Virus record (IMG/VR): IMGVR_UViG_3300008267_000018
Coordinates: 20,613 to 84,612 of that record
From: a virus
Direction: 5' to 3' (one strand)
Length of the DNA: 64,000 bases
The number at the start of each line of letters is the position of its first letter. Position 1 is the stretch's first letter. Positions 11,144 through 63,312 of the stretch are shown here, in pieces. A model generated the notes under the pieces. It saw nothing but the letters and a program-made list of their open reading frames with translations, searched no databases and had not been told where the DNA came from. The position numbers were made by a program, and so were the translations under genes.

Positions 11144-11327
11144 TAATGTTCTCCAGTTCGTTGGCAATATCTAAAATGTCTTGCCGAATATCATCTGCTC
11201 CTTTAATACGTGATGCTAATGCATAGAGAGTAGCAATAACAATTTGACGGGAATACGAATCAGGTTCTACTTCCCATTCAGCAACAGCGTCAAAGATTGC
11301 TTGACTAGCAGGGGAAAGGTTAGTCAT
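11136..11327 (-). CDS. 'LSPAA' small repeat-family protein, copy 3
   Basis: 63 aa from ATG 11327 (MTNLSPASQAIFDAVAEWEV), ending DIANELENIND. The most diverged of the four copies in its first half, yet it keeps the same ends and junctions. Function not known. Confidence 0.7.
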   Translation of the reverse strand: MTNLSPASQAIFDAVAEWEVEPDSYSRQIVIATLYALASRIKGADDIRQDILDIANELENIND

Positions 11328-11664
11328 CAAGTTGCTCCAGTGCTAAACGAATGGTGTCCACCTCAGCTTCACTCCAAAAATCTTTTGGATATTTCAGCGT
11401 TTCTAGTGCCTGTTCCTTCAAGCTCGGCGGCTTGGGGCGCATTGCTTCTTTTAAGGATTCACCCATTGGAGTAATCCTTAGATGCGGTTCATTCAAGGTA
11501 TTGTAATCTAGCCACTCTGCATCTTTTGCAAGTTGTTGGTCTGCGCCCCACTGAGCAGCACGTGCAGCAATATGAAGCTCGTAAAGCCAATCACGTTCGT
11601 CATAACACTTTTCAGAAGCCCACTGCTCTATGAGCTCGCGAGGTGGGGTAATAGAGTTAGTCAT
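11320..11664 (-). CDS. 'ITPPPELV' family protein, copy 1
   Basis: 114 aa from ATG 11664: MTNSITPPRELIEQW at the start, AARAAQWGADQQL in the middle and PPSLKEQALETL...LALEQLDD at the end. Copies at 12106-12453 and 16727-17071 share all three blocks. Small proteins of this kind are known from marine Synechococcus and their phages; no function is established. Joined to both neighbours by 8-nt overlaps. Confidence 0.7.
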   Translation of the reverse strand: MTNSITPPRELIEQWASEKCYDERDWLYELHIAARAAQWGADQQLAKDAEWLDYNTLNEPHLRITPMGESLKEAMRPKPPSLKEQALETLKYPKDFWSEAEVDTIRLALEQLDD

Positions 11665-11707
11665 CGTTCGGCCTCCTGAACTCACCTACATACGATTCGT
11701 CAGTCAT
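11657..11707 (-). CDS. 16-codon linker mini-gene
   Basis: ATG 11707 to TAA 11657: MTDESYVGEFRRPNDD. It exactly fills the gap between two modular genes, and each end makes the same 8-nt overlap (ATGACTGA upstream, ATGACTAA downstream) as all other junctions in the array. It contains AGGAGG, a perfect Shine-Dalgarno for the next gene. This regularity is the evidence that it is a real module and not chance. Confidence 0.55.
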   Translation of the reverse strand: MTDESYVGEFRRPNDD

Positions 11708-12113
11708 TGGGCATAGCCTCCAGCTCGGCGGCGATGACGAGAAGTTGGGCGCGGATCTCGTCCATAGCGTCCCAACGCACAAAAGGTGTGCCGATTAGTG
11801 GAGGAGCAGTCTCTGGCACCACTTGATCCGCAGCAGCTTGCAGGGCGGCGGCAGCAATCCAGCGGGATTCGTTTAGGCAGTCATCTGCCCCCCAGGAGCT
11901 GGCACCGTTGGCGGCATCCAGCACAGCTTCAGCGGCGGGGGAGAGGTCAGTCATGGGCAGGCGATCGCTCACCGGGATGGGCTGCGGCCCCTCCGGCTCG
12001 GGCTGGTCCAGGGCGGCGCGGGCGCGTTCCAGCAAGGCGTGATGGACTTCATCCACCGCATAGGTATTGAACGCGGCGTGAAGCTCAGCGCACAGCTCTC
12101 GGTAGTCAGTCAT
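11700..12113 (-). CDS. fusion of a 'MTDYRELCAEL' module with an 'LSPAA' module
   Basis: 137 aa. Residues 1-53 (MTDYRELCAELHAAFNTYAV, then a Pro/Glu linker) are unlike the neighbours. From residue 54 the protein restarts as MTDLSPAAEAVLDAANGASS and ends LLVIAAELEAMPND, a full LSPAA unit. The internal Met suggests that two once-separate genes fused. The DNA is visibly GC-rich and holds the cyanobacterial HIP1 palindrome GCGATCGC at 11961-11968. Confidence 0.7.
   Translation of the reverse strand: MTDYRELCAELHAAFNTYAVDEVHHALLERARAALDQPEPEGPQPIPVSDRLPMTDLSPAAEAVLDAANGASSWGADDCLNESRWIAAAALQAAADQVVPETAPPLIGTPFVRWDAMDEIRAQLLVIAAELEAMPND
11961..11968. other. HIP1 palindrome GCGATCGC
   Basis: HIP1 is highly over-represented in many cyanobacterial genomes. 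I noticed no other exact copy in this window; this one falls in the GC-rich modular island, consistent with acquisition from a host chromosome. Confidence 0.8.
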
Positions 12114-12453
12114 GGAGTTGCTCTAGTGCGCGGCGGATGGTCTGGGCGGCGTTGTTGTTGATGTGCCCACCTTCCCAAGCGTTCTCAAGCATTTCAAGCG
12201 CCTGCTCCTTCAAGCTCGGCGGATTGGGGCGGCGGGCGGCGCGGATGTAGCGAGCAAAGTCATAAGCATCCTCACCAGCGTCAATTTCAACCAGCCTTAG
12301 GCACGCCTCCAGCTCCTGGTCGGCGCCCCATTGGGCGGCGTGGTGGGCAATAAACAACTCGTATGCCCAGTTCTCGTCGTTGCTTTGAACAGGGCTAGCA
12401 GCTGACCACTGCTGCACCAGCTCCGGCGGTGGGGTGATGGGGTGGTTAGTCAT
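12106..12453 (-). CDS. 'ITPPPELV' family protein, copy 2
   Basis: 115 aa, MTNHPITPPPELVQQW at the start, HHAAQWGADQELEACL, RAARRPNPPSLKEQALEML and ALEQLHD at the end. Paralogue of 11320-11664 and 16727-17071. Codons are GC-rich compared with the surrounding genes. It is the first gene of the overlapping module array, 2 nt after the stop of the gene at 12456. Confidence 0.7.
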   Translation of the reverse strand: MTNHPITPPPELVQQWSAASPVQSNDENWAYELFIAHHAAQWGADQELEACLRLVEIDAGEDAYDFARYIRAARRPNPPSLKEQALEMLENAWEGGHINNNAAQTIRRALEQLHD

Positions 12454-13843: not shown

Positions 13844-13919
13844 TGGTACCCGAGGTGAGATTCGAACTCACGCTTGAGGACTTTTAAGGTCCTTGCCTCT
13901 TCCGCTGGGCTACTCGGGC
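13844..13919 (-). tRNA. tRNA with anticodon UAA (reads UUA, Leu), short variable loop
   Basis: A complete cloverleaf of 76 nt with encoded CCA. Acceptor GCCCGAG pairs with CTCGGGT (one G-U). The D arm is GCCC...AGGC with a 13-22 mismatch. The anticodon stem AGGAC/GTCCT carries loop CTTAAAA, so the anticodon is UAA. The variable loop has 5 nt; T stem GTGAG/CTCAC with loop TTCGAAT. Leu tRNAs are normally class II with a long variable arm; this one is class I. Its first ten bases are shared with the 3' end of the CDS at 13910-14176. Confidence 0.85.
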
Positions 13920-16536: not shown

Positions 16537-16734
16537 TCAGAACAACTTGATGTTGCGTTTACTCAAGCCTGTGCCAGGCAATGAGATAGATCCACGTACA
16601 CCAGATTCTCTGGCGTTAAGTGTTACCTGGAATGGTCCAAGTTGAATCGACTTAGTAAACGATTTGATTCCATGTTCAGTGACATTGAATCCAGCAATTG
16701 TCTTGTCAAAGTTAATGGGTGACTTGTCAGTCAT
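16537..16734 (-). CDS. DUF4236-like protein
   Basis: 65 aa from ATG 16734. The C-terminal half (SIQLGPFQVTLNARESGVRG, then SISLPGTGLS) matches the beta-strand pattern of DUF4236: a LG-x-x-V-N segment, then SGVxGSxSxPGTG. Function of that family is unknown. Joined to the ITPPPELV copy 3 gene by the same 8-nt overlap as the 11-12 kb array. Confidence 0.6.
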   Translation of the reverse strand: MTDKSPINFDKTIAGFNVTEHGIKSFTKSIQLGPFQVTLNARESGVRGSISLPGTGLSKRNIKLF

Positions 16735-17071
16735 CGAGTTGCTCCAGTGCTTTACGAATGATGTCGTAAGTGACATCATCAATCTTGTCTCTGTTGTATA
16801 CATCGCCAAGTTCAATTAACGCTTGCTCCTTTAAGCTTGGCGGCCTGGGGCGGCGGGCGGCGCGGAGTGATGGGATGAGAGCGCAGTGAGTTACTAGGTT
16901 TTGGCAGCGCAGCCACTCACAACACGCCTCTAGCTCCTGATCGGCGCCCCAGCGGGCGGCTTGGGTGGCGATGAAATCTACAAGTCCATCATGTTTGACC
17001 TTGGCATCAATCCAAGAATCGTGCCACTGCTCCACCAGTTCCGGCGGTGGGGTAATTGGATGGTCAGTCAT
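16727..17071 (-). CDS. 'ITPPPELV' family protein, copy 3
   Basis: 114 aa: MTDHPITPPPELVEQW, AARWGADQELEACCEWL, RAARRPRPPSLKEQALIEL and KALEQLDD. Paralogue of copies 1 and 2. The central part is GC-rich relative to its neighbours. 8-nt overlaps at both ends show that it was inserted as the same kind of module about 4.3 kb from the main array. Confidence 0.7.
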   Translation of the reverse strand: MTDHPITPPPELVEQWHDSWIDAKVKHDGLVDFIATQAARWGADQELEACCEWLRCQNLVTHCALIPSLRAARRPRPPSLKEQALIELGDVYNRDKIDDVTYDIIRKALEQLDD

Positions 17072-18596: not shown

Positions 18597-18629
18597 TTAG
18601 ATCAAGCCGAGAATCCTAAGCCAGGAGTT
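18597..18629 (-). pseudogene. orphan duplicate 3' end of the 19161-19520 gene
   Basis: Reads NSWLRILGLI-stop in frame, against DSWLSILGLI-stop at the true end of the 119-aa gene: 8 of 10 residues identical, but only 22 of 33 bases, with mostly synonymous changes. It lies directly beyond the HNH/AP2 gene and overlaps its last codons. Confidence 0.75.
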
Positions 18630-19158
18630 TACAACTGATTTCAGGCAATACATTTAATACTGAAAAATCTTTGTAAACATCTTTAACAAAGCAATTGTAT
18701 TCATAGGCTAAACGAGCAGGGCATATGTGATGAGCAAGATGTTTAGACTTACCGTTTAGAGTAACGGTAGACCTAAATAAACCTCTTGTCTTGTGCCATG
18801 AAACCCCCTTGTAACCCGTAGTGTTACTAGATCTAAGTTTCATGTTTGCTGCGTTTTGAGATCTACTTGATAAACGTAGATTTTCAATACAGTTATTAGA
18901 ACTATCTTGATCTATATGATCAACTTCATATTGACCAGGATCTGTACCTGTGGCCAGATAATAAACAATCCTGGCGCACTTATAGTTCTTTCCATTGATT
19001 TGAATTATAGATCGCTTGGATTTAAAATCATAGGCACCTGCCTGTTCACCAGGTTTGCATCGATTATTAAAGCTGTATTTAACAGCAAGACCAGTAGGAA
19101 AACTGGGGCAAAGTTCATAACGCTTTGCCACCAAATCGTAGTCAGGCATGTTGTGCAT
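18616..19158 (-). CDS. HNH homing endonuclease with AP2 domain
   Basis: 180 aa from ATG 19158 (ATG 19149 also possible; a start at 19188 would overlap the neighbour). HNH_3 core around residues 55-105: CARIVYYLATGTDPGQYEVD, then HIDQDSSNNCIENLRLSS, with the usual H-N-N pattern. AP2 domain ~115-160: TGYKGVSWHKTRGLFRSTVT. Homing endonucleases of this type cut an uninvaded allele and are copied in by repair. It sits at the 3' end of 19161-19520 and is followed by a duplicate of that gene's end (18597-18629). Confidence 0.85.
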   Translation of the reverse strand: MHNMPDYDLVAKRYELCPSFPTGLAVKYSFNNRCKPGEQAGAYDFKSKRSIIQINGKNYKCARIVYYLATGTDPGQYEVDHIDQDSSNNCIENLRLSSRSQNAANMKLRSSNTTGYKGVSWHKTRGLFRSTVTLNGKSKHLAHHICPARLAYEYNCFVKDVYKDFSVLNVLPEISCKLLA

Positions 19159-19160
19159 AA

Positions 19161-19520
19161 TTAAATCAATCCAAGAATTGATAACCAAGAATCTACGTGG
19201 TCTGGTTCGACTTCGTCACTGCAGGGAGTGAGGCAGGTGCTGTCGAACGTGTACTCCTCGATCTCTTCGTTGGTTGGGATGTCGTACCATCCTTCGAGAT
19301 CTTCCTTGTCCTGGGCTGAGTAGTTACCACCGGCTGGGATCCAGTAGCACCTGAGGATTCCACGCTTGGTTCTGTAGACATTACCAGTGCAGGCGATGGC
19401 GCCTTTGGGTGCGTCCTGAAAGTCTGTCTCTGCTTGGAACTGCTGGTTACCTTCGTCTTCGTCGAAGGCTTCGTAGCCGAGTGCGTCTGCGATGAGCAGT
19501 TGTTCAGGTTGAAGAGACAT
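19161..19520 (-). CDS. hypothetical acidic protein, target of HNH insertion
   Basis: 119 aa, MSLQPEQLLIADALGYEAFD at the start and HVDSWLSILGLI at the end. It contains GNVYRTKRGILRCYWIPAGG in the middle and is strongly acidic. Its last 11 codons are duplicated beyond the HNH gene, so its current 3' end probably came in with the endonuclease. The upstream 328 nt also carry the out-of-frame tail of the membrane protein 19193-19672. Confidence 0.6.
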   Translation of the reverse strand: MSLQPEQLLIADALGYEAFDEDEGNQQFQAETDFQDAPKGAIACTGNVYRTKRGILRCYWIPAGGNYSAQDKEDLEGWYDIPTNEEIEEYTFDSTCLTPCSDEVEPDHVDSWLSILGLI

Positions 19521-20422: not shown

Positions 20423-20764
20423 TTATCTTATGTATAGGTATGAACCTGCATAATCACAGTTGTGTAGGCAGGTTTCAAATGATTGATCATCCAGTAGTTG
20501 GTACCGTGCATGTTCCGCTGGTGCTTTCCATGATGCAGGCTTATAGATAGTCCCTGTCTGTCTTGCGACAAATGCATGGACTGATCTGCCTTCATACCTG
20601 GTACCAGGACTAGAGACATGGATGATCTTGTAGTACTTAACCCCTCGCTTAACTTCGAAAGCTACGGGGCTACTGTGCTGTTTGTAGAACTTATCTTGGA
20701 GAGTCTCGCAGAGTTGTTGGATGCGATCCTCGATAAGCTTGGTGTTAGCGCTTAGTGTTGTCAT
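20423..20764 (-). CDS. conserved phage hypothetical protein
   Basis: 113 aa from ATG 20764. It contains FEVKRGVKYYKIIHVSSPGT, GRSVHAFVARQTGTIYKPAS and a YLY end. This VKxGxKYxKI...SVHAFV...G-x-x-YKPASWKAPA pattern recurs in unrelated tailed phages as an uncharacterised small protein. The start is supported by a CAACCCAACTCCTACTCAAC leader. It overlaps the membrane protein gene by 20 nt. Confidence 0.65.
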   Translation of the reverse strand: MTTLSANTKLIEDRIQQLCETLQDKFYKQHSSPVAFEVKRGVKYYKIIHVSSPGTRYEGRSVHAFVARQTGTIYKPASWKAPAEHARYQLLDDQSFETCLHNCDYAGSYLYIR

Positions 20765-41759: not shown

Positions 41760-42173
41760 ATGATTCTTCATCAGCATAAAAAAACAGGCGCTCGCGTCAA
41801 GATCGTAAGCGAATGGGATAATGGCGATTGGTTCATGGTCGAAGATCAGGACGGTCGCCTTTACACTGCTTACAAAACTGAACTTATCCCTGATGAGCAA
41901 GCTACCAAAAAGGTGACTGCTCTTCAAGTAAAAGATAAGGCGGCACAGGAAGAGCCACGTACTTTTCCTCCGGACACTCGCTTGAACATCAACTCAGCCA
42001 CCGCCCAAATGATCGCAGATCATATCAAGGGCATTGGACTGAAGACTGCCCGAGAGATCAAAGATCTACAGATGTCCTTATCGGGTGAGAGATTTAACAG
42101 CCTTGAGCAGTTGAAACAAATCAAAAGAGTTGACTGGAGTGCGGTCTTGGCAGCCGATTTAATAAGGGTCTGA
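41760..42173 (+). CDS. helix-hairpin-helix protein, target of HNH insertion
   Basis: 137 aa. Residues 1-45 form a small beta domain (ARVKIVSEWDNGDWFMVEDQ). Residues ~72-130 match a ComEA-like HhH unit: LNINSATAQMIADHIKGIGL, then TAREIKDLQ and FNSLEQLKQIKRVDW, which binds DNA backbone. Possibly a head-completion or connector protein. It ends AVLAADLIRV-stop; the same ten residues recur as AVLAADLVRV-stop at 42692-42724 beyond the HNH gene. Confidence 0.7.
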   Translation: MILHQHKKTGARVKIVSEWDNGDWFMVEDQDGRLYTAYKTELIPDEQATKKVTALQVKDKAAQEEPRTFPPDTRLNINSATAQMIADHIKGIGLKTAREIKDLQMSLSGERFNSLEQLKQIKRVDWSAVLAADLIRV

Positions 42174-42187
42174 TTTAAACGCATAAC

Positions 42188-42646
42188 TCAACCAAGAGGG
42201 GTAACACCCCTCTTTTTCATTATGGCGTTGAATTTTTCTTTATTTCTTGTTTTTATGTGATGGCATGTGCCACAGAGAACCTGGCATTTTTTTATTTCTT
42301 TTTCAAGTCTTTTTTTGCTAAACGTACCCCCTCGTCCAATGTTAAATTTTTTATCGTAAAGATGATCAAAATCTAGTCCCTCAGGGTGTTCGTTATACCC
42401 ACAGCATGCGCAACCTTCTGTTATTTTTAAATTGTTCATCCAGTTTCTGTTTTCAGAAGACAAACGTTGAGATCTTTTTTTGTCATAGGCTTTTTTCTTT
42501 TCTTGTTGGTCGGGACTCATCCATACCTCTAAAAAAGTTCCGTCTTGTTTAATTTTTTTAAAGTTGTAACCAATAAAAATAAAGCCGTCTTCCCTGCAGT
42601 CGCCGTGTTTAAAAAATGCCCCAGTTTTTGGATTAATTCTTTTCAT
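42188..42646 (-). CDS. HNH homing endonuclease, antisense to late genes
   Basis: 152 aa. Core at ~75-140: two CxxC pairs (GCACCGYNEHPEGLDFDHLY ... VLCGTCHHIKT) that hold a structural zinc around the HNH site (D-H in FDHLY, H-H in CHH). It is AT-rich compared with neighbours and lies on the opposite strand inside the late operon. Its last codons form one arm of a plus-strand terminator. Inserted behind 41760-42173, with a duplicate of that gene's 3' end on its far side. Confidence 0.85.
   Translation of the reverse strand: MKRINPKTGAFFKHGDCREDGFIFIGYNFKKIKQDGTFLEVWMSPDQQEKKKAYDKKRSQRLSSENRNWMNNLKITEGCACCGYNEHPEGLDFDHLYDKKFNIGRGGTFSKKRLEKEIKKCQVLCGTCHHIKTRNKEKFNAIMKKRGVTPLG
42195..42217 (+). 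terminator. intrinsic terminator behind the HhH gene
   Basis: AGAGGGGT/ACCCCTCT 8-bp stem, 3-nt loop, five T. It overlaps the 3' end of the antisense HNH gene and was probably brought with it. Confidence 0.8.
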
Positions 42647-42691
42647 TTTTAAGATAGCAAAATAAAACTATAACACCTGAAACGTTTTATT

Positions 42692-42724
42692 GCCGTACTT
42701 GCTGCCGACTTAGTCCGCGTTTAA
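42692..42724 (+). pseudogene. orphan duplicate 3' end of the HhH gene
   Basis: AVLAADLVRV-stop, against AVLAADLIRV-stop at 42141-42173: 9 of 10 residues identical but only 21 of 33 bases, most differences at third codon positions or in synonymous Leu/Arg codons. It is followed by the original terminator, so it looks like the end of the gene before HNH insertion. Confidence 0.8.
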
Positions 42725-42739
42725 CTTGTCTCCTACTGG

Positions 42740-42763
42740 CCCCTGGGAAACCAGGGGTTTTTT
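42740..42763 (+). terminator. intrinsic terminator
   Basis: CCCCTGG/CCAGGGG stem with GAAA loop and six T. Originally the terminator of the HhH gene. Confidence 0.85.
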
Positions 42764-43514: not shown

Positions 43515-43976
43515 GTGCAATTATCTGACTTTGACAAAAGTAGGGTCAGGTATCACCTGGGCTATTTCACGGTTTCTGTTCCGGCGGGCGATTACGCACG
43601 TCTGGAAGAAGCCCTGAATACCATCCCAGATTCGTACTTCTACGATAAAATTGCTATTCAAATTGGTCGTTGTGATACTGCCGAGAAAAAGACTGAGGTA
43701 GCCACTTCACCTTCTACTCGACTCGAAAGTATTGCTGGTGACGTTGATCGTACTATTCGGTCAAGTAATGCCAAGGAAGCATTAAAAGTTTGGGACGAGA
43801 TCTATCTCTACGAAACAAACCGTTTGGCTGGCATTCTTTACGTACCTAACTACAAGGATCCGTTCCAGGCTCGTTATCGTTACGAACGCTCTGGTGCTGA
43901 GTTTATCCAGGCATTACCTGGACCCGCCGATGTCTCGGTTGGCACTCGCATATATCTTCACGAGCTATGGCGATGA
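43515..43976 (+). CDS. hypothetical virion protein, target of HNH insertion
   Basis: 153 aa, TTG start. Alpha/beta: LGYFTVSVPAGDYARLEEAL, then a helix and a tyrosine-rich C-terminus (YKDPFQARYRYERSGAEFIQ). It ends VGTRIYLHELWR-stop; VGSRIYLHEVWR-stop recurs at 44554-44592 beyond the HNH gene. Possibly a head-tail connector by location; family not recognised. Confidence 0.6.
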   Translation: MQLSDFDKSRVRYHLGYFTVSVPAGDYARLEEALNTIPDSYFYDKIAIQIGRCDTAEKKTEVATSPSTRLESIAGDVDRTIRSSNAKEALKVWDEIYLYETNRLAGILYVPNYKDPFQARYRYERSGAEFIQALPGPADVSVGTRIYLHELWR

Positions 43977-44016
43977 TTTAATCCGTGTATGCTAGGATAT
44001 TGATACACGGATTAAA
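43977..44016 (+). promoter_or_regulatory. 14-bp perfect inverted repeat enclosing a -10 box
   Basis: Arms TTTAATCCGTGTAT (43977-43990) and its complement (44003-44016) surround GCTAGGATATTG, which contains TAGGAT (43993-43998). It begins right after a stop codon and ends four bases before the HNH ATG. Confidence 0.75.
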
Positions 44017-44019
44017 CAG

Positions 44020-44535
44020 ATGGTGGCCCCTTGTCCCTTGCCGGCGATTGAAGAGTTAAAAGAATATTATGAATATATACCAGAAACAGGTGAGTTGTTT
44101 TTAATTAAATCACGTTGCAAGGCTGATAAGCAAAAAATCGGTAAACCAATCGGTTCTCTTGGCGGTCCGGTAAGACGCAAAACGTGGACGATAAAACATA
44201 AAGGGAAAAGCTATTACATTAGTCGAGTTGCCTGGGTATTGATGACCGGTATAGATCCAGGTCTTTTGCTGGTTGAGCATAAAAACAGAAATGCCCAAGA
44301 CAATCGCTGGGAAAATTTAAGGTTGGCTAGTGAGGCGGAAAACAACTACAACAAAATTTTTGTTGGGTATAGCCAAAGGAAAGATAACGAGCTGTACCGT
44401 GTTCGTGTTACTTTGGAAGGTAAACGTATCACCGTAGGCAACTTTAAGACCGAGGAAGAAGCAAAGAAGGCTGCCCTAGATGCGCAAAGACTTTTCTATA
44501 AAGAATTTGCGTGTCTTGATTTAGAATCAAATTAA
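44020..44535 (+). CDS. HNH homing endonuclease with AP2-like C-terminus
   Basis: 171 aa. HNH_3 core ~50-110: YYISRVAWVLMTGIDPGLLL, then VEHKNRNAQDNRWENLRLAS, keeping H and two N. AP2-like DNA-binding part ~120-165: NELYRVRVTLEGKRITVGNF, then EEEAKKAALDAQRLF. Inserted behind 43515-43976 and followed by a duplicate of that gene's 3' end. Its start is controlled by a large inverted repeat. Confidence 0.85.
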   Translation: MVAPCPLPAIEELKEYYEYIPETGELFLIKSRCKADKQKIGKPIGSLGGPVRRKTWTIKHKGKSYYISRVAWVLMTGIDPGLLLVEHKNRNAQDNRWENLRLASEAENNYNKIFVGYSQRKDNELYRVRVTLEGKRITVGNFKTEEEAKKAALDAQRLFYKEFACLDLESN

Positions 44536-44553
44536 TAAATAAAGTAGCCCGCT

Positions 44554-44592
44554 GTCGGTTCACGCATCTATCTACATGAGGTTTGGAGGTAA
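44554..44592 (+). pseudogene. orphan duplicate 3' end of the 43515 gene
   Basis: VGSRIYLHEVWR-stop against VGTRIYLHELWR-stop at 43938-43976: 10 of 12 residues identical, 27 of 39 bases. Its last codons TGG AGG TAA contain the Shine-Dalgarno of the next gene (ATG 44595), which explains why this fragment is kept. Confidence 0.8.
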
Positions 44593-57321: not shown

Positions 57322-57728
57322 GGTAACGGCCCCCGGTCAACAAGGGTATACATATCAGTTCTCCTAAAATCAAGCTGAGTAATTTCTTTATTTTTAGCAA
57401 AAGAAGCCACAAGTTGATTCCAGGGAATTCGGATGACCGCTTTTTTTGCTGGATCCGGAGTTACGTTGACATAATGAATACCTTCCGTCCAACCTTTATC
57501 AGGGTTTTTCTTGCCTGAAGAAATCCAATTCCTGATTGTTTGGTCAGAAATTCCAAGGCGTTGAGCGCATTCTTCTGTCGATATATACTCATCGGTGAAT
57601 GCTTCTGGATTAACAATGTCAGTTTCTCCGTTGGCGTAACGAGCATGCCACATGGAGGCAAGAATATTCCGTATGCCTTTTAGTTCTTTCGCAATATCTT
57701 CCAAGCCTTTTCTAAGTCCATGATTCAT
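57318..57728 (-). CDS. excisionase-like HTH protein
   Basis: 136 aa. N-terminal helix; residues ~50-110 read EYISTEECAQRLGISDQTIR, NWISSGKKNPDKGWTEGIHY and IPWNQLVASF, a MerR-type HTH with wing, as in excisionases and helix-turn-helix_17 proteins. It heads the minus-strand block 54143-57728, so it may regulate it. Confidence 0.65.
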   Translation of the reverse strand: MNHGLRKGLEDIAKELKGIRNILASMWHARYANGETDIVNPEAFTDEYISTEECAQRLGISDQTIRNWISSGKKNPDKGWTEGIHYVNVTPDPAKKAVIRIPWNQLVASFAKNKEITQLDFRRTDMYTLVDRGPLP

Positions 57729-57783
57729 TGGCGTACCTCTTTTGTTTATATGCTAAGGTGTGGGGAAGCGTTCTGCATAGTAA

Positions 57784-58137
57784 ATGGAAGATCAAATTCC
57801 TTCTAGCATTCCTCCCCAAAACCAAGCTCAACTCAATGAGCTACCGCCTGACTTCCTGGAACAACTAAAGGCACGTGCCAGGGAAGAGGCCGTACGTCAA
57901 ACAGTCTTGAAGCAACAAATGGCGCAGGTTGAATCACAGGTATCTAGACAGTCAGTCCCTGCTCCCCCCGTTGAAGTTGCGACTCCTCAGCCGAGCGTTG
58001 TTTACATTCGGCGTAATTTAACCGTTGCCGAATTGATTGTTGTGTTTGCTATTGCCTGTGGACTTGTAACAGGCATTCAAGCAATTTGGAATACTGGCTC
58101 CAGGTTTTTACCAAGCATTGAAATCCGCGTAAAATAA
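57784..58137 (+). CDS. tail-anchored membrane protein, 117 aa
   Basis: Pro/Gln/Glu-rich N-terminal 75 residues with a coiled-coil (FLEQLKARAREEAVRQTVLK), then a span at ~83-103 (AELIVVFAIACGLVTGIQAI). A holin is possible but a single late span near the C-terminus is equally found in other phage proteins. Confidence 0.5.
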   Translation: MEDQIPSSIPPQNQAQLNELPPDFLEQLKARAREEAVRQTVLKQQMAQVESQVSRQSVPAPPVEVATPQPSVVYIRRNLTVAELIVVFAIACGLVTGIQAIWNTGSRFLPSIEIRVK

Positions 58138-58154
58138 ATTAAACACAGGTCAAC

Positions 58155-58160
58155 TATAAT
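58155..58160 (+). promoter_or_regulatory. candidate late -10 box TATAAT
   Basis: CAACTATAATTT, 29 nt before the tail-fibre GTG. Confidence 0.45.
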
Positions 58161-58189
58161 TTATTTTATAGGATTTTGTGGCTTGGTAG

Positions 58190-60781
58190 GTGGCTAATAG
58201 GCGCGTAACAGAACTGCCAGCTATTTCGTTTGTTGAGATCAGCGACAACGATCTCTTGATGGTCGTTGATGTTGCCGAAGTTGACCCCGGTCTAAAAAAT
58301 AAGAAGTTTACATTTGCCAACACCAAAGACTACCTCAATCAGTACTACCTGCAATTGGCTGGTGGCACTATTGCAGGTTCTTTGGTTGTTAGCAACAGTT
58401 TAACTGTTAGTGGTGTTTTTAATCCGCAAAATATTCAAGTCAGCGGCGTAGGTACTTTTGCAAATATTGTTGTTACAGGTAATGCAGAAGTACAGACTAC
58501 GTTAAGCGGAAATACTATTACAGGCACTTCGCTGCTTGGCGTTAATGTTAATGCCGTTAACTTTTATGGTATTACAGGATCTATTGGTGAACTTAGTGTT
58601 GGAACAGGTAATTTTGTTCGTATTAGCGGCGTAACAATAACTGGTTCTACTGGTCGATTTCAAACTCTAACCGGTCAGTCTATAAGTGGTGCAACCGGTA
58701 TTTTTTCCAGTATTACGGGCACTAACATTACTGGGGTAAATGGTGTATTTACCACTCAGCTTTCAGGTGCAGTTGTCACTGGAGATACCATAAGAGCATC
58801 TAGTATCACAGGTGTTTTAGGTGTATTCACTTCAAGTGTTTCTGGTGCGACTGTAACGGGAAATACAGTTCTTGGTAGTAATATCACGGGTGTATCCGGT
58901 GTCTTTACAACTCAAATTTCTGGTGGAGTTGTTACCGGAAACACCGGCTTGTTTGCAAATCTTACTGGTATTTCTGGAACATTTACCAGTCGTGTTTCTG
59001 GTACTACGGTTACAGGAGCTAGTGGTTCATTTGGACGTGTCAATGGAGTTACGGGTGTTTTTACATCTGTTTTATCTGGCGATACAATTACCGGAAATTC
59101 AGGTTTCTTTGGATCAATTACAGGAGTAACTGGAGATTTTGATTTTGGTGCATTTTACACACTTGCTGCTCTTACAGGATATGTTTTTAATTTAGAAAGC
59201 GATTCCGGTAATTTTCTTTATGTTGTTTCGGGTGCTACCATCACCGGTCAGACCGGTTTATTTACAACAGTAACTGCCGCAACTGGTATCTTTACGGATA
59301 CTCTTGCAATTCCAACAATCACAACGACCGGTGATATTGACGCCAGTGGTAGTTTAACTATCTTTGGAAGTGGTGTTTTTGGTTCCGGTTTAACTGTTAG
59401 TGGAATAATCTCTGGCCAAACAGTCACTGGCTCTACGGGTAATTTTAATGTTATCAACGCTAATCAAATCTATGGTGCAACGTTTATTTCTGGTACAACC
59501 GTAACAGGAGCATCGGGTTCTTTTTCTAGAGTAACAGCCATTAGTGGCGTTTTTACTAACAACTTAAGTGGCACAACAATTACCGGCAATACTATAGACG
59601 CAACGACCGGTAATTTTGTTACTGGTATTTTTAATGTTATTTCTGGTGCAAACATAACTGGTAACATTGGACGCTTTACAACAGTTACTGGTATATCTGG
59701 AGTCTTTACTTCTCAGCTTTCAGGAACTCTTATTACTGGTGTCACTGGATCTTTTGCAAACGTTAATGCAGTAAGTGGCACATTTACAGATCGCGTCTCT
59801 GGCGCTATCATCACGGGAGACGCAGGTCGTTTTAGTAATATCACTGGCGTCTCTGGCGTCTTTACCTCTAGCATTTCAGGCGCAACCGTCACTGGCGCGG
59901 CAGGTAATTTTGGCACTGTCACAGGTGTTTCTGGCGTCTTTACGGCCCAGGTTTCGGGTGCAACGGTTACCGGAAATGTAGGTATTTTCACCCGAATCAC
60001 GGGTATTAGTGGTGCCTTTACAGCTCAGCTTTCTGGACAGAACGTCTTTGGTGAAAACGCTACCTTTAACTACATTACCGGTAGCACCAGGGTTGAAGGC
60101 GGAACCGTATCTGGTGTTACGGTAACTGGTAATACAGGTCTCTTTGGTAACCTGACAGCTGCTACTGGCAACTTCACATCTAGAGTCTCCGGTGCTTACA
60201 TAACAGGTGCAACGATTGAAGCAGTAACTGTTAATGCAATTACAGGTAACTTTACGGTCGCAAACTTTACGCAAACAACAACGGGCAATATTCAGGCCAG
60301 TGGTAGTGGCATTTTTGGCAGTGGTGTTTTTACAAGTGGAATTGTTTCAGGTGGTATTTATTACGCTAGTGGCGGTGTTGTTGTTATCTCTGGCCCAGGT
60401 GACGTTCGCCCATATGGTTTATACAGTTTTCCAAATAGTCTGGGTATTTCTGGCTACATCCTTTCTACAAATGCAAATGGAACCACCAGCTGGCTTCCTG
60501 CGCCAGGCAAAGAAGAGAATGTTGTTGTTGTATCAGGAAACGTAACAACTAGCGGGAATACGTACTACGTCTTGATTAGCGGTGCATCCTTAACGCTGCC
60601 TGGAACTCCCGTTAGCGGTAATTATGTGGGCATTATCAACAGGAGCAGCACAACAACTGGATTAATTTTAAGGAACGGAAGTAATATAATGGGTGTAGCA
60701 GATGATTTACAGATCGACGATTTAAACGCTCGTTTTAGGTTGATCTACGCAGATTCTTCACAAGGTTGGGTGATTGACTAA
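58190..60781 (+). CDS. repeat-rich tail fibre protein 1
   Basis: 863 aa, GTG start. Residues 1-55 (RRVTELPAISFVEISDNDLL) form the attachment-type N-terminus found in cyanophage fibres. Residues ~65-720 consist of a 26-residue repeat (pattern TGVSGVFTSQVSGATVTGNT and variants), predicted to form a beta-helix or beta-prism trimer. The C-terminal ~110 residues (GYILSTNANGTTSWLPAPGK) are a knob-like end. Recognises or reaches the host surface. Confidence 0.75.
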   Translation: MANRRVTELPAISFVEISDNDLLMVVDVAEVDPGLKNKKFTFANTKDYLNQYYLQLAGGTIAGSLVVSNSLTVSGVFNPQNIQVSGVGTFANIVVTGNAEVQTTLSGNTITGTSLLGVNVNAVNFYGITGSIGELSVGTGNFVRISGVTITGSTGRFQTLTGQSISGATGIFSSITGTNITGVNGVFTTQLSGAVVTGDTIRASSITGVLGVFTSSVSGATVTGNTVLGSNITGVSGVFTTQISGGVVTGNTGLFANLTGISGTFTSRVSGTTVTGASGSFGRVNGVTGVFTSVLSGDTITGNSGFFGSITGVTGDFDFGAFYTLAALTGYVFNLESDSGNFLYVVSGATITGQTGLFTTVTAATGIFTDTLAIPTITTTGDIDASGSLTIFGSGVFGSGLTVSGIISGQTVTGSTGNFNVINANQIYGATFISGTTVTGASGSFSRVTAISGVFTNNLSGTTITGNTIDATTGNFVTGIFNVISGANITGNIGRFTTVTGISGVFTSQLSGTLITGVTGSFANVNAVSGTFTDRVSGAIITGDAGRFSNITGVSGVFTSSISGATVTGAAGNFGTVTGVSGVFTAQVSGATVTGNVGIFTRITGISGAFTAQLSGQNVFGENATFNYITGSTRVEGGTVSGVTVTGNTGLFGNLTAATGNFTSRVSGAYITGATIEAVTVNAITGNFTVANFTQTTTGNIQASGSGIFGSGVFTSGIVSGGIYYASGGVVVISGPGDVRPYGLYSFPNSLGISGYILSTNANGTTSWLPAPGKEENVVVVSGNVTTSGNTYYVLISGASLTLPGTPVSGNYVGIINRSSTTTGLILRNGSNIMGVADDLQIDDLNARFRLIYADSSQGWVID

Positions 60782-62769
60782 TGGCCATTAAATATAGCTC
60801 TTACGATTCCAGTAGCGGTAATATTTTTTCACTGGTTACAATCACTGGCCAGAGCGGTGTCTTCACGTCTCAGGTTTCTGGCGCTACCATCACAGGTAAT
60901 GCGGGTCAATTTACCACTATCACTGGTGGTACTGCACAATTCACCAACATCACGGGTGTTTCTGGTACGTTTACAAGCCGGATCTCTGGCGCCACGGTAA
61001 CTGGCACGTCTGGTCAATTCACGACTCTTACTGCAACTACTGGCGTTTTTACAACTAGTATTTCTGGAGCCACTATTTCTGGCGACCTTGGCTTGTTTGG
61101 TACCATTAGTGGCAGCCAAGGCTTTTTTAGCTCTAGTCTTTCTGTTCCCAGTGGCACTGCTAGTAGCCCATCTATTAGTTTTAACGAGGACTCAAACACC
61201 GGCATCTATTCACCAGGCGCAGACCAAGTAGCCATCAGCACTAATGGCACTGGGCGTCTCTCCGTAGATGCAAACGGCAATGTCGCCGTCGACACTAATA
61301 CGCTCTATGTTGATGCCGTCAATAACAGAGTAGCGATTGGCACTACGAGCCCTGGGGGGACGCTTGACATTAAAGCTGCAGCATCAACTGCACCGCTTAT
61401 TGTCCAAGGACCCTCCAGCGAGTTTGCCCGAATCGACTCCAGCGGCAGGCTCTTAGTTGGTACGTCTAGTGCGTCTGGGGCGGCAATTCTCCAGGTGCAA
61501 ACACCAACTACATTATCTACAACGTCAGACGATGGCGTTGTTTTTAGCAATGCCTCCACAAAAACTTACCCAACCACATCCAACTTTACGGTAACTGCAG
61601 GGTTTGATCAAAATATAGAGCTTGGCACTGCTCAAACAGTAGATACAGTGACGCCCGGTGGATTTAACTTTGTTTTTGGGCAACGACACACATTTACCAA
61701 ATCTGCCGGCAATACTCAAGACATTGTGAGGCTTTTGTTTTCCGGTTTTAGCCAGACTTTTAACTGGGCAGATGCTAATACATGCCAACAATATATAGGA
61801 TTTTCAGATACTTTTAACTATCAAGGTATTGATGCCAATAGCCGCACGTCTGGCGCCCTGTTTGCCACTACCTTGAACCTTCTCCCTCCGAATGGTGGTA
61901 CGCAAACTATTGCGAACACACAGGGAACAGGCGCCACAGCACTGAGCACGACCGCTTCATCTGCCACCATTAACATAGCTACTGGTTTAGGTGTCACACC
62001 TAACCTTAACTTTCGGGCGAACACGTCTGGAACACTCACAGCAAACATAACAAGCTACACTTTCCTTGGTACTAACACTAGTTGGGGTGCAGTCGCCTCA
62101 GGTACTGCTACTATTAATGCAACCATCACAAACCTTTATGGTTTGCGCCTCATTGCTCCATCTTCTTCTACTGGTTTAACAGTTACAAACAACTGGGGTA
62201 TCCGCCAAGAGTGGAGTAGCGCCAAAAACTGGTTTGCTGGTGCATCCAACCAGTTCCCTAATATCACCACAACAGCTTCGGGTGCCAACGCTTTCCTAGA
62301 CAGTGCTGATTCCAACAGGCTGTACAGGTCTACTTCTTCCATTGTCTACAAGAGAGATGTCGAGAACCTAGACCACGCACTTGCAGATAACATTCACCAG
62401 TTCCGCCCTGTCTGGTACAGGTCAAACTGTGCAGCCGACTGTCAGGACTGGTCGTGGTTTGGTTTAATTGCAGAAGAAGTTGCCGCAATCGAGCCACGCC
62501 TTGTCCATTACGGCTACCAGGAAGACGCCTATGAACTGGTCGATGTTACCGAGACAGTTGAGCTGCAACCTGACGACCCTCGCCGTGAGTCGGGAGAAGA
62601 AACAGAGGAAGTCACCAAGCAAGAGCGCCGTCTTAAAGATGACGCCCAGCAAGTTCCAAACGGTGTGGCTTACGACCGCCTGACAGTCCTTCTGCTTGAT
62701 GTTGTGCAGCGCCAGGAGGATCGGATTAAGGATCTTGAAGCTAGGTTATCTGCTCTTGAGACTGCGTAG
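60781..62769 (+). CDS. tail fibre/spike protein 2 with S74 chaperone
   Basis: 662 aa. Residues 1-115 carry the same 26-residue repeats as fibre 1. The middle is beta-rich (ISFNEDSNTGIYSPGADQVA). The C-terminal ~120 residues (SSIVYKRDVENLDHALADNI, FGLIAEEVAAIEPRL, then AYDRLTVLLLDVVQRQEDRI) are an intramolecular chaperone of endosialidase type, peptidase S74, which trimerises and then cleaves itself off. Starts on the TAATG overlap with fibre 1. Confidence 0.85.
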   Translation: MAIKYSSYDSSSGNIFSLVTITGQSGVFTSQVSGATITGNAGQFTTITGGTAQFTNITGVSGTFTSRISGATVTGTSGQFTTLTATTGVFTTSISGATISGDLGLFGTISGSQGFFSSSLSVPSGTASSPSISFNEDSNTGIYSPGADQVAISTNGTGRLSVDANGNVAVDTNTLYVDAVNNRVAIGTTSPGGTLDIKAAASTAPLIVQGPSSEFARIDSSGRLLVGTSSASGAAILQVQTPTTLSTTSDDGVVFSNASTKTYPTTSNFTVTAGFDQNIELGTAQTVDTVTPGGFNFVFGQRHTFTKSAGNTQDIVRLLFSGFSQTFNWADANTCQQYIGFSDTFNYQGIDANSRTSGALFATTLNLLPPNGGTQTIANTQGTGATALSTTASSATINIATGLGVTPNLNFRANTSGTLTANITSYTFLGTNTSWGAVASGTATINATITNLYGLRLIAPSSSTGLTVTNNWGIRQEWSSAKNWFAGASNQFPNITTTASGANAFLDSADSNRLYRSTSSIVYKRDVENLDHALADNIHQFRPVWYRSNCAADCQDWSWFGLIAEEVAAIEPRLVHYGYQEDAYELVDVTETVELQPDDPRRESGEETEEVTKQERRLKDDAQQVPNGVAYDRLTVLLLDVVQRQEDRIKDLEARLSALETA

Positions 62770-62783
62770 TCCCCTTCTCCTCT

Positions 62784-62846
62784 ATGCCTGAATCTTCGAT
62801 CACGCCACCGTCGGAACTTGTTGAGAAATGGCTGGCATACCTGTAA
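62784..62846 (+). pseudogene. 20-codon fragment resembling ITPPPELV proteins
   Basis: ATG 62784 to TAA 62844-62846: MPESSITPPSELVEKWLAYL. It matches the N-terminus of the family at 11, 12 and 16.7 kb (ITPPPELVxxW) but stops at once. On the plus strand, directly beyond the tail fibre. Could be a fragment or a true mini-gene. Confidence 0.5.
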
Positions 62847-62938
62847 CACAAGCCGCGCAGTGGGCAGGCAATACAAGCGAAGTGATCTGGAAACACTATG
62901 CCGGAAGTACAAAAGATTATGAAATGCCAGTTTTATAA
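62828..62938 (+). pseudogene. tyrosine-recombinase C-terminal fragment
   Basis: ATG 62828 to TAA 62936-62938, 36 codons: MAGIPVTQAAQWAGNTSEVI ... KHYAGSTKDYEMPVL. It resembles the last segment of phage/cyanobacterial integrases, G-(I/V)-x-(L/V)...W-(A/L)-G-(N/H)-x-x-x-V-x-x-(H/R)Y, where Tyr of HYAG is the nucleophile. A stop directly upstream shows that it is separated from any catalytic domain. Confidence 0.5.
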
Positions 62939-62965
62939 TTAGATTTTTGTTTATGTAAATAAGGC

Positions 62966-62971
62966 TAGAAT
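62966..62971 (+). promoter_or_regulatory. candidate late -10 box TAGAAT
   Basis: GGCTAGAATAAG, 17 nt before ATG 62989. Confidence 0.4.
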
Positions 62972-62988
62972 AAGAAAAAACATCTGTC

Positions 62989-63312
62989 ATGGCTAACACT
63001 ATTTGGGACATTGCTCAGCTTGAGCGTCATCTGCCTGATGGGGAAACCTGTCCTGACGGTGCTATTTACACCGTGCATTGGACAGCTTCCCTAGAGGAAA
63101 ATGGTGAGGCTGCCGGTGCGTATGGCAGTGTTGGCCTTGGTGATCCAGACCCAGATAATTTCACTCCCTTTAGTGAGCTGACAAAAGAAGAAGTCATTAA
63201 CTGGACACTTTCGGCTATTGGTATTGATCAAGTTGTTTCTATTGAAGAAGCACTTCACAATCAAATCCAGCAAAAACTAAATCCAACATCCGCAGCCGGT
63301 GTCCCTTGGTGA
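62989..63312 (+). CDS. small tail-associated protein (DUF7936-like)
   Basis: 107 aa: MANTIWDIAQLERHLPDGET, then YTVHWTASLEENGEAAGAYG, LTKEEVINWTLSAIG and an end LNPTSAAGVPW. This beginning and the N-P-x-x-x-x-G-(L/V)-PW end are typical of a small protein next to cyanophage tail fibres. Beta-sandwich first, helical second. Probably structural or fibre-assembly; exact role not known. Confidence 0.65.
   Translation: MANTIWDIAQLERHLPDGETCPDGAIYTVHWTASLEENGEAAGAYGSVGLGDPDPDNFTPFSELTKEEVINWTLSAIGIDQVVSIEEALHNQIQQKLNPTSAAGVPW

Follow-up and report, generated by a model that had tools for sequence, protein, structure and literature searches.

Why should a viral gene carry its 3′ end twice, once as its working end and once more as an orphan beyond an endonuclease gene? 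This question is raised by a locus at positions 41760–42763 of a 64,000-nucleotide stretch of virus DNA (positions 20,613 to 84,612 of IMG/VR record IMGVR_UViG_3300008267_000018; hereafter the window). The whole virus record measures 84.6 kb, the window's closest annotated relative is Synechococcus phage S-EIV1 (73% across half of the query), and the viruses bearing the elements described here belong to a freshwater cyanobacterial virus group. At this locus, the gene 41760–42173 (+ strand) encodes a 137-amino-acid helix-hairpin-helix-like protein (HHH_3 match with an E value of 1.2e-5, just under the cut-off) and is followed by an antisense gene for an HNH endonuclease (42188–42646, − strand, 152 amino acids), beyond which the end of the first gene appears again. 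A preliminary description made from the sequence alone had proposed that the endonuclease gene arrived with its own protein-preserving but recoded 3′ end, which would keep the invaded gene functional and immune to cutting. Our analysis largely supports this interpretation, and we consider it very likely that the locus represents a homing element without intron or intein that carries a replacement for the end of the gene it invades.

The gene 41760–42173 is a hybrid of a native body and an element-supplied 3′ end (42138–42173, delimited by allele comparison), and the left boundary of the insert lies directly after GTTGACTGG, at position 42137. The end of the encoded protein, AVLAADLIRV-stop, reappears at 42692–42724 (+ strand) as AVLAADLVRV-stop with 21 of 33 bases identical, just as the preliminary description had it. 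Its statement that the old terminator stands behind the orphan end and that the live gene has a new one was likewise borne out, since both regions fold as strong hairpins followed by T runs. The new, element-borne terminator is located at 42193–42217 (+ strand, −13.8 kcal/mol) and is also found in L003, L005, and L087–L091 (loci and contigs compared with the window are designated by L numbers), while the original terminator of the target gene lies at 42738–42763 (+ strand, −17.3 kcal/mol). Upstream of the HNH start there is a conserved right border (42647–42691, − strand; TAAAACTATARCACCTGAAACGTTTTATTG on the + strand), which is kept in three element lineages (the window, L087, and L093) and is possibly the promoter of the HNH gene.

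The arrangement is not a singular one. When the tail of each gene was compared with its downstream sequence, the 106 open reading frames (ORFs) of the window yielded three matches with a score of at least 42, where chance alone would give about 0.25, and each of them flanks an HNH gene. The same layout had been claimed for two further HNH genes besides the one described above (case 1), and both proved to be real. In case 2 (+ strand), a 153-amino-acid target gene (43515–43976) with an element-supplied end from about position 43931 is followed by an HNH gene (44020–44535, 171 amino acids) and by an orphan 3′ end at 44551–44592. In case 3 (− strand), the target gene (19161–19520, 119 amino acids), of which the last 36 bases (19161–19196) are element-supplied, is followed by an HNH gene (18616–19158, 180 amino acids) and an orphan end at 18597–18632. 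A chance repeat is ruled out by the null expectation of the tail comparison and by the HNH-free (empty) alleles described below. Misassembly is ruled out as well, since the layout recurs in independent contigs: L002 and L004, which are identical to the window and come from other metagenomes, show the same arrangement.

If the orphan is a displaced native end, alleles lacking the HNH gene should agree with the orphan end and the terminator behind it, as the preliminary description had predicted. This is what we found in HNH-free relatives, some of which are 97–99% identical in the adjoining sequence. Among the 80 nearest relatives of the case-1 target gene, only L002–L005 have this HNH gene directly behind the gene; in the rest, insofar as the following gene was locatable, that gene begins 12–92 bases downstream. 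The HNH-free loci L006 and L007 read GACTGGGATTCCGTACTTGCTGCCGACCTAGTCCGCGTTTAA, followed by the same terminator, and thus agree with the orphan rather than with the live end. Orphans are matched by HNH-free alleles also in case 2 (L005–L007) and in case 3, where the native end of L285 is identical in sequence to the orphan. We also looked for an HNH-free relative with both ends and for a different conserved gene to which the orphan end might belong, and neither was found. Since HNH-free relatives end natively like the orphan in all three cases, the observation is confirmed.

A near-isogenic series around the divergent relative L087, in which 365–372 of 372 body bases and 97–98% of the left flank are identical, contains three allele states. 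These are occupied alleles (L125, L127, L130, and L131), native empty alleles (L134–L141), and HNH-less alleles with chimeric ends (L124/L126, L128, and L133), in which a recoded start passes into a native remainder at three different breakpoints. The occupied L125 and the empty L134 are 97.6 and 97.2% identical on either side of the insert. In case 2, the bodies of L142 (occupied) and L090 (empty) are 99.3% identical, with the orphan of L142 being identical to the native end. Only few native bases are missing between the two arms (~4, ~6, and ~7 for case 2, case 1, and a 5′ mirror case described below, respectively), which would place the cut at the insertion point. Some loci deviate from these states: L146 and L204 are HNH-free and keep nearly the whole element-type end, and have probably lost the HNH gene, whereas in L093 (minus strand) and L286 the element is present and the orphan coding end has been lost, with the right border ACGTTTTATTG retained in L093.

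The near-isogenic loci also bear on the idea that the end was duplicated identically at insertion and that the live copy subsequently acquired mutations by which it escaped cutting, which would likewise give two ends differing chiefly in DNA. However, the full difference is already present between near-isogenic loci with bodies 97–99% identical, and live ends across unrelated backgrounds (window/L087; window/L286) are alike and unlike their own orphan. Both observations contradict escape mutation in place, and we give this explanation hardly any credence.

The claim that the endonuclease arrived with its own 3′ end is upheld by the finding that recoded end and HNH gene go together. In case 2, a DVSVGT-type end is present at 18 of 18 distinct HNH-bearing loci, with carriers detected by tblastn, compared to 14 of 102 HNH-free loci (Fisher test, 4e-13). 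Most of these 14 finish with the native HEVWR half, which fits deletion chimeras. Where the gene bodies are at least 90% identical, native ends of case 2 are 90% alike on average, whereas HNH-linked and native ends are 60% alike; the corresponding values for case 1 are 86 and 63%. In case 3, HVDSWLS occurs in all three HNH-bearing lineages and in none of the HNH-free ends. Furthermore, the HNH-bearing loci do not form one clade in the gene-body trees of case 1 (log-likelihood difference, dlnL, of 209; 8 changes) and case 2 (dlnL 418; 12 changes).

A comparison of the window with L005 revealed that 551 of 552 bases of the insert are shared, as are 100 of 100 bases of the orphan end and old terminator, whereas the flanks are 93.0% (left) and 89.2% (right) identical. 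At 7% divergence, such an identity of the insert would have a probability of about 1e-19. The left end of the shared tract is the insertion point and its right end lies within ~60 bases past position 42738, and the gene body of L005 has its nearest match (98%) in the HNH-free locus L281. Since the near-identical insert and orphan stretch sit in more divergent flanks, the comparison indicates a recent horizontal transfer of exactly the recoded end, terminator, HNH gene, orphan end, and old terminator. A homing event in the recent past would be expected to leave such a footprint.

One could argue that the HNH gene and the donor's gene end were simply brought in together by ordinary homologous recombination, without homing and without a role in immunity. 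The live end of the window's case 1 is compatible with such a passive transfer, since it lies within the range of distant relatives' ends: its best native match is 79% identical, compared to a mean of 69% among natives with 80–90% identical bodies (the truncated HNH-bearing contig L129 was left out of this comparison). Thus, the term "recoded" holds insofar as the end differs in its bases with the protein kept, but no special recoding process is needed; as the live end is no more different than the ends of distant relatives, descent from a divergent allele suffices. However, plain recombination would replace the recipient's end and not strand it beyond an HNH gene. The boundaries are exact and repeated, and inserts that are 99.8% identical lie within flanks of 89–93% identity. 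In addition, the one layout is shared by several HNH families and has a mirror-image counterpart at a 5′ end, and strong purifying selection acts on the HNH genes (e.g., a nonsynonymous divergence dN of 0.06 vs. a synonymous divergence dS of 1.9). Passive transfer is therefore, in our view, an unlikely explanation.

For the homing element with gene-end replacement, we infer the following cycle. The unit consists of a divergent, protein-preserving 3′ end, a terminator, the HNH gene, and the displaced native end, which would serve as homology arm. When phages co-infect a cell, the HNH protein would cut alleles lacking the HNH gene close to where the target gene ends. Repair would then copy the element in, so that the recipient's body acquires the element's 3′ end, by which the protein is restored, and the recipient's own end comes to lie beyond the HNH gene, an outcome that the sequences show. 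The hybrid allele would escape cutting because of its different bases around the site. The HNH gene would later be deleted by recombination between the two ends, leaving an HNH-free allele with a recoded core, as seen in the chimeric alleles. The allele series suggests that loci pass from the empty through the occupied to the deleted state, and both the cutting of native ends and the resistance of the recoded end are proposed from sequence comparison. This resistance is indirectly supported, since HNH-less chimeras keep the recoded core and since silent changes block another phage HNH enzyme: gp210 of Phi-PA3 is specific for a phage gene, and a target with 17 silent changes escaped it (PMC11620839), which supports synonymous differences as a means of protection. 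That system differs in that gp210 lies within a group I intron and the protective target was made in the laboratory.

Several points weigh against this reading. The changes counted in the gene-body trees leave gain and loss undistinguished. Ordinary homologous recombination without cutting could be the source of part of the pattern, and some chimeric alleles could stem from recombination between phages and not from deletion within one. In part, the VSVGT end that HNH-free phages have in case 2 may go back to an older, naturally occurring variant. Finally, the predicted structure of the case-1 HNH protein, which is of moderate quality (pLDDT, a predicted local confidence score, of 75), gave no significant fold match; the top-ranked match was an HNH nicking enzyme with a non-significant E value of 0.37.

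Judged by their sequences, three separately targeted HNH genes would act in the proposed way in one phage, and a fourth would do so at a 5′ end in relatives. In this mirror form (L003:4754–5826; L008:4266–5340; L306, 269–1342, minus strand), the HNH gene sits at the 5′ end of the 153-amino-acid gene. The native first 29–30 codons are left upstream as an orphan, and the working gene begins with a recoded copy, in which 66–67 of 87–90 bases are identical and which has one amino-acid difference. The HNH protein is related to that of case 1 (47–50% identical in alignment; L003, L306). Moreover, a second subfamily of the case-2 HNH gene (L092, L124, L139, and L170) is inserted at the same 3′ end, ~20 bases further upstream. 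The end that it carries preserves the protein less faithfully (YLNLHWR vs. YLHEVWR).

The mirror form also speaks to whether the HNH genes might belong to a group I or II intron whose splicing would link body and orphan end; in favour of this, it could be said that VDW joined to AVLAADLVRV would be in frame. However, the 5′ mirror cases restore the start-codon end, the target gene already has its own stop codon and terminator, and the HNH gene runs antisense to the target in case 1 but in the sense direction in the other two cases. A self-splicing intron around the gene, by which group I/II intron-encoded endonucleases are recognized, was not detected for the HNH genes with the Rfam intron families. 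We give an intron virtually no credence. With respect to the homing elements proposed here, it seems probable to us that they represent a general class in phages, that is, splicing-free elements with endonucleases of several HNH families, protected by a synonymous-divergent 3′ or 5′ end, whose full cycle is readable in natural populations. End duplication was not found at 14 HNH loci of isolated, mostly enterobacterial phages (L307–L320), and thus the layout is not universal among phage HNH genes.

The case-1 HNH protein matches the phage HNH family PHROG 3106 (E value 7e-24). The DH, N, and H motif residues and the flanking CxxC pairs are present, and C-x2-C/D-H/N/C-x2-C-H is kept in every aligned relative. 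Relatives 65–100% identical are found. The proteins of case 2 (E value 1.2e-11; also PHROG 99, 6e-45) and case 3 (1.6e-12) fall in Pfam HNH_3, an HNH type without CxxC pairs. In case 3, the orphan end contains the stop codon of the HNH gene, whose reading frame thus extends into the displaced gene end. In case 2, a 14-bp hairpin (43977–44016, + strand) is located between the stop of the hybrid gene and the HNH start; it is conserved in relatives, among which its stem covaries (e.g., CTTGA/TCAAG vs. TTTAA/TTAAA). In phage T4, hairpins have been reported to hold back the translation of some endonuclease genes, and the hairpin of case 2 may act on the translation of its HNH gene in this way.

Apart from these elements, the gene after the 153-amino-acid gene varies in many relatives (L203–L282), which makes this a hypervariable locus beside a conserved virion-region gene. 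In the window, two long ORFs at 57700–63000 contain many internal direct repeats (SGVFTSQVSGATITG-like) and probably encode tail-fibre proteins. Small paralogous genes of one family, whose products start with ITPPPELVQQW and end with RALEQLDD, are found at 11320–12453 and 16727–17071 (both − strand), and a tRNA gene is present at 13847–13919 (− strand).

A comparable way of working is known from the WHO elements of Torulaspora and Lachancea yeasts, for which allele-specific cutting has been shown (Coughlan et al., 2020, PMC7282813). In the yeast as in the phage elements, an endonuclease gene lies beyond a hybrid target whose 3′ end is element-supplied, a displaced native 3′ fragment is kept beyond the endonuclease gene (in the phages with the exception of L093 and L286), and gene body and end have conflicting histories. 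The right-hand part of the transfer tract covers the orphan end, which matches the prediction of the WHO model for the homology arm. WHO elements, however, concern the nuclear gene FBA1, have fragments of ~400 bases, and encode HO/intein-type endonucleases fused to zinc fingers, whereas the phage elements use several HNH families, have ends of ~30–50 bases (~90 in the 5′ form) and several targets, and leave HNH-free chimeric alleles; allele-specific cutting by their nucleases is a prediction from sequence. Because their nucleases are of HNH families, they are WHO-like in their working but no WHO relatives by descent.

In fungal mitochondrial mobile ORFs (Beaudet et al., 2013, PMC3630166), a foreign inserted C-terminus likewise leaves the protein nearly unchanged at 64–81% DNA identity to the native end, which lies beyond the endonuclease ORF; that paper also cites the C-terminal duplication in Allomyces atp6. 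These ORFs differ in being mitochondrial, in encoding endonucleases such as LAGLIDADG, some of them in phase with the gene, and in being described from few loci without a near-isogenic allele series. By descent, the phage elements are neither WHO elements nor fungal mobile ORFs, as their nucleases are phage HNH proteins. With the T4-type free-standing Seg/Mob endonucleases (reviewed in PMC2988022), they share an intron-less phage HNH or GIY-YIG gene and, according to the proposed cycle, double-strand break repair and co-conversion of flanks; the HNH genes studied here are also stand-alone genes outside introns and inteins that are patchily distributed among close relatives. In Seg/Mob systems, however, the cut site usually lies apart from the insertion site of the endonuclease gene, and in the consulted passages of that review neither a carried replacement end nor an orphan end is described, and the string "duplicat" is absent from its text. 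We found no description of gene-end replacement in phages in the searchable literature, which mostly excludes subscription journals, and priority is uncertain.

A phage endonuclease gene outside introns and inteins must neither ruin the gene that it invades nor cut its new host. Both problems appear to be solved by one carried end that gives the same protein from different DNA. The strategy is known from fungi and is found here in bacterial viruses with a different nuclease fold. Since near-isogenic alleles of all three states exist, the homing cycle is testable. The proposed elements would explain the hybrid genes and odd fragments of gene ends that phage genomes contain, and they would present a natural parallel to engineered "home-and-rescue" gene drives, which carry a recoded rescue copy.
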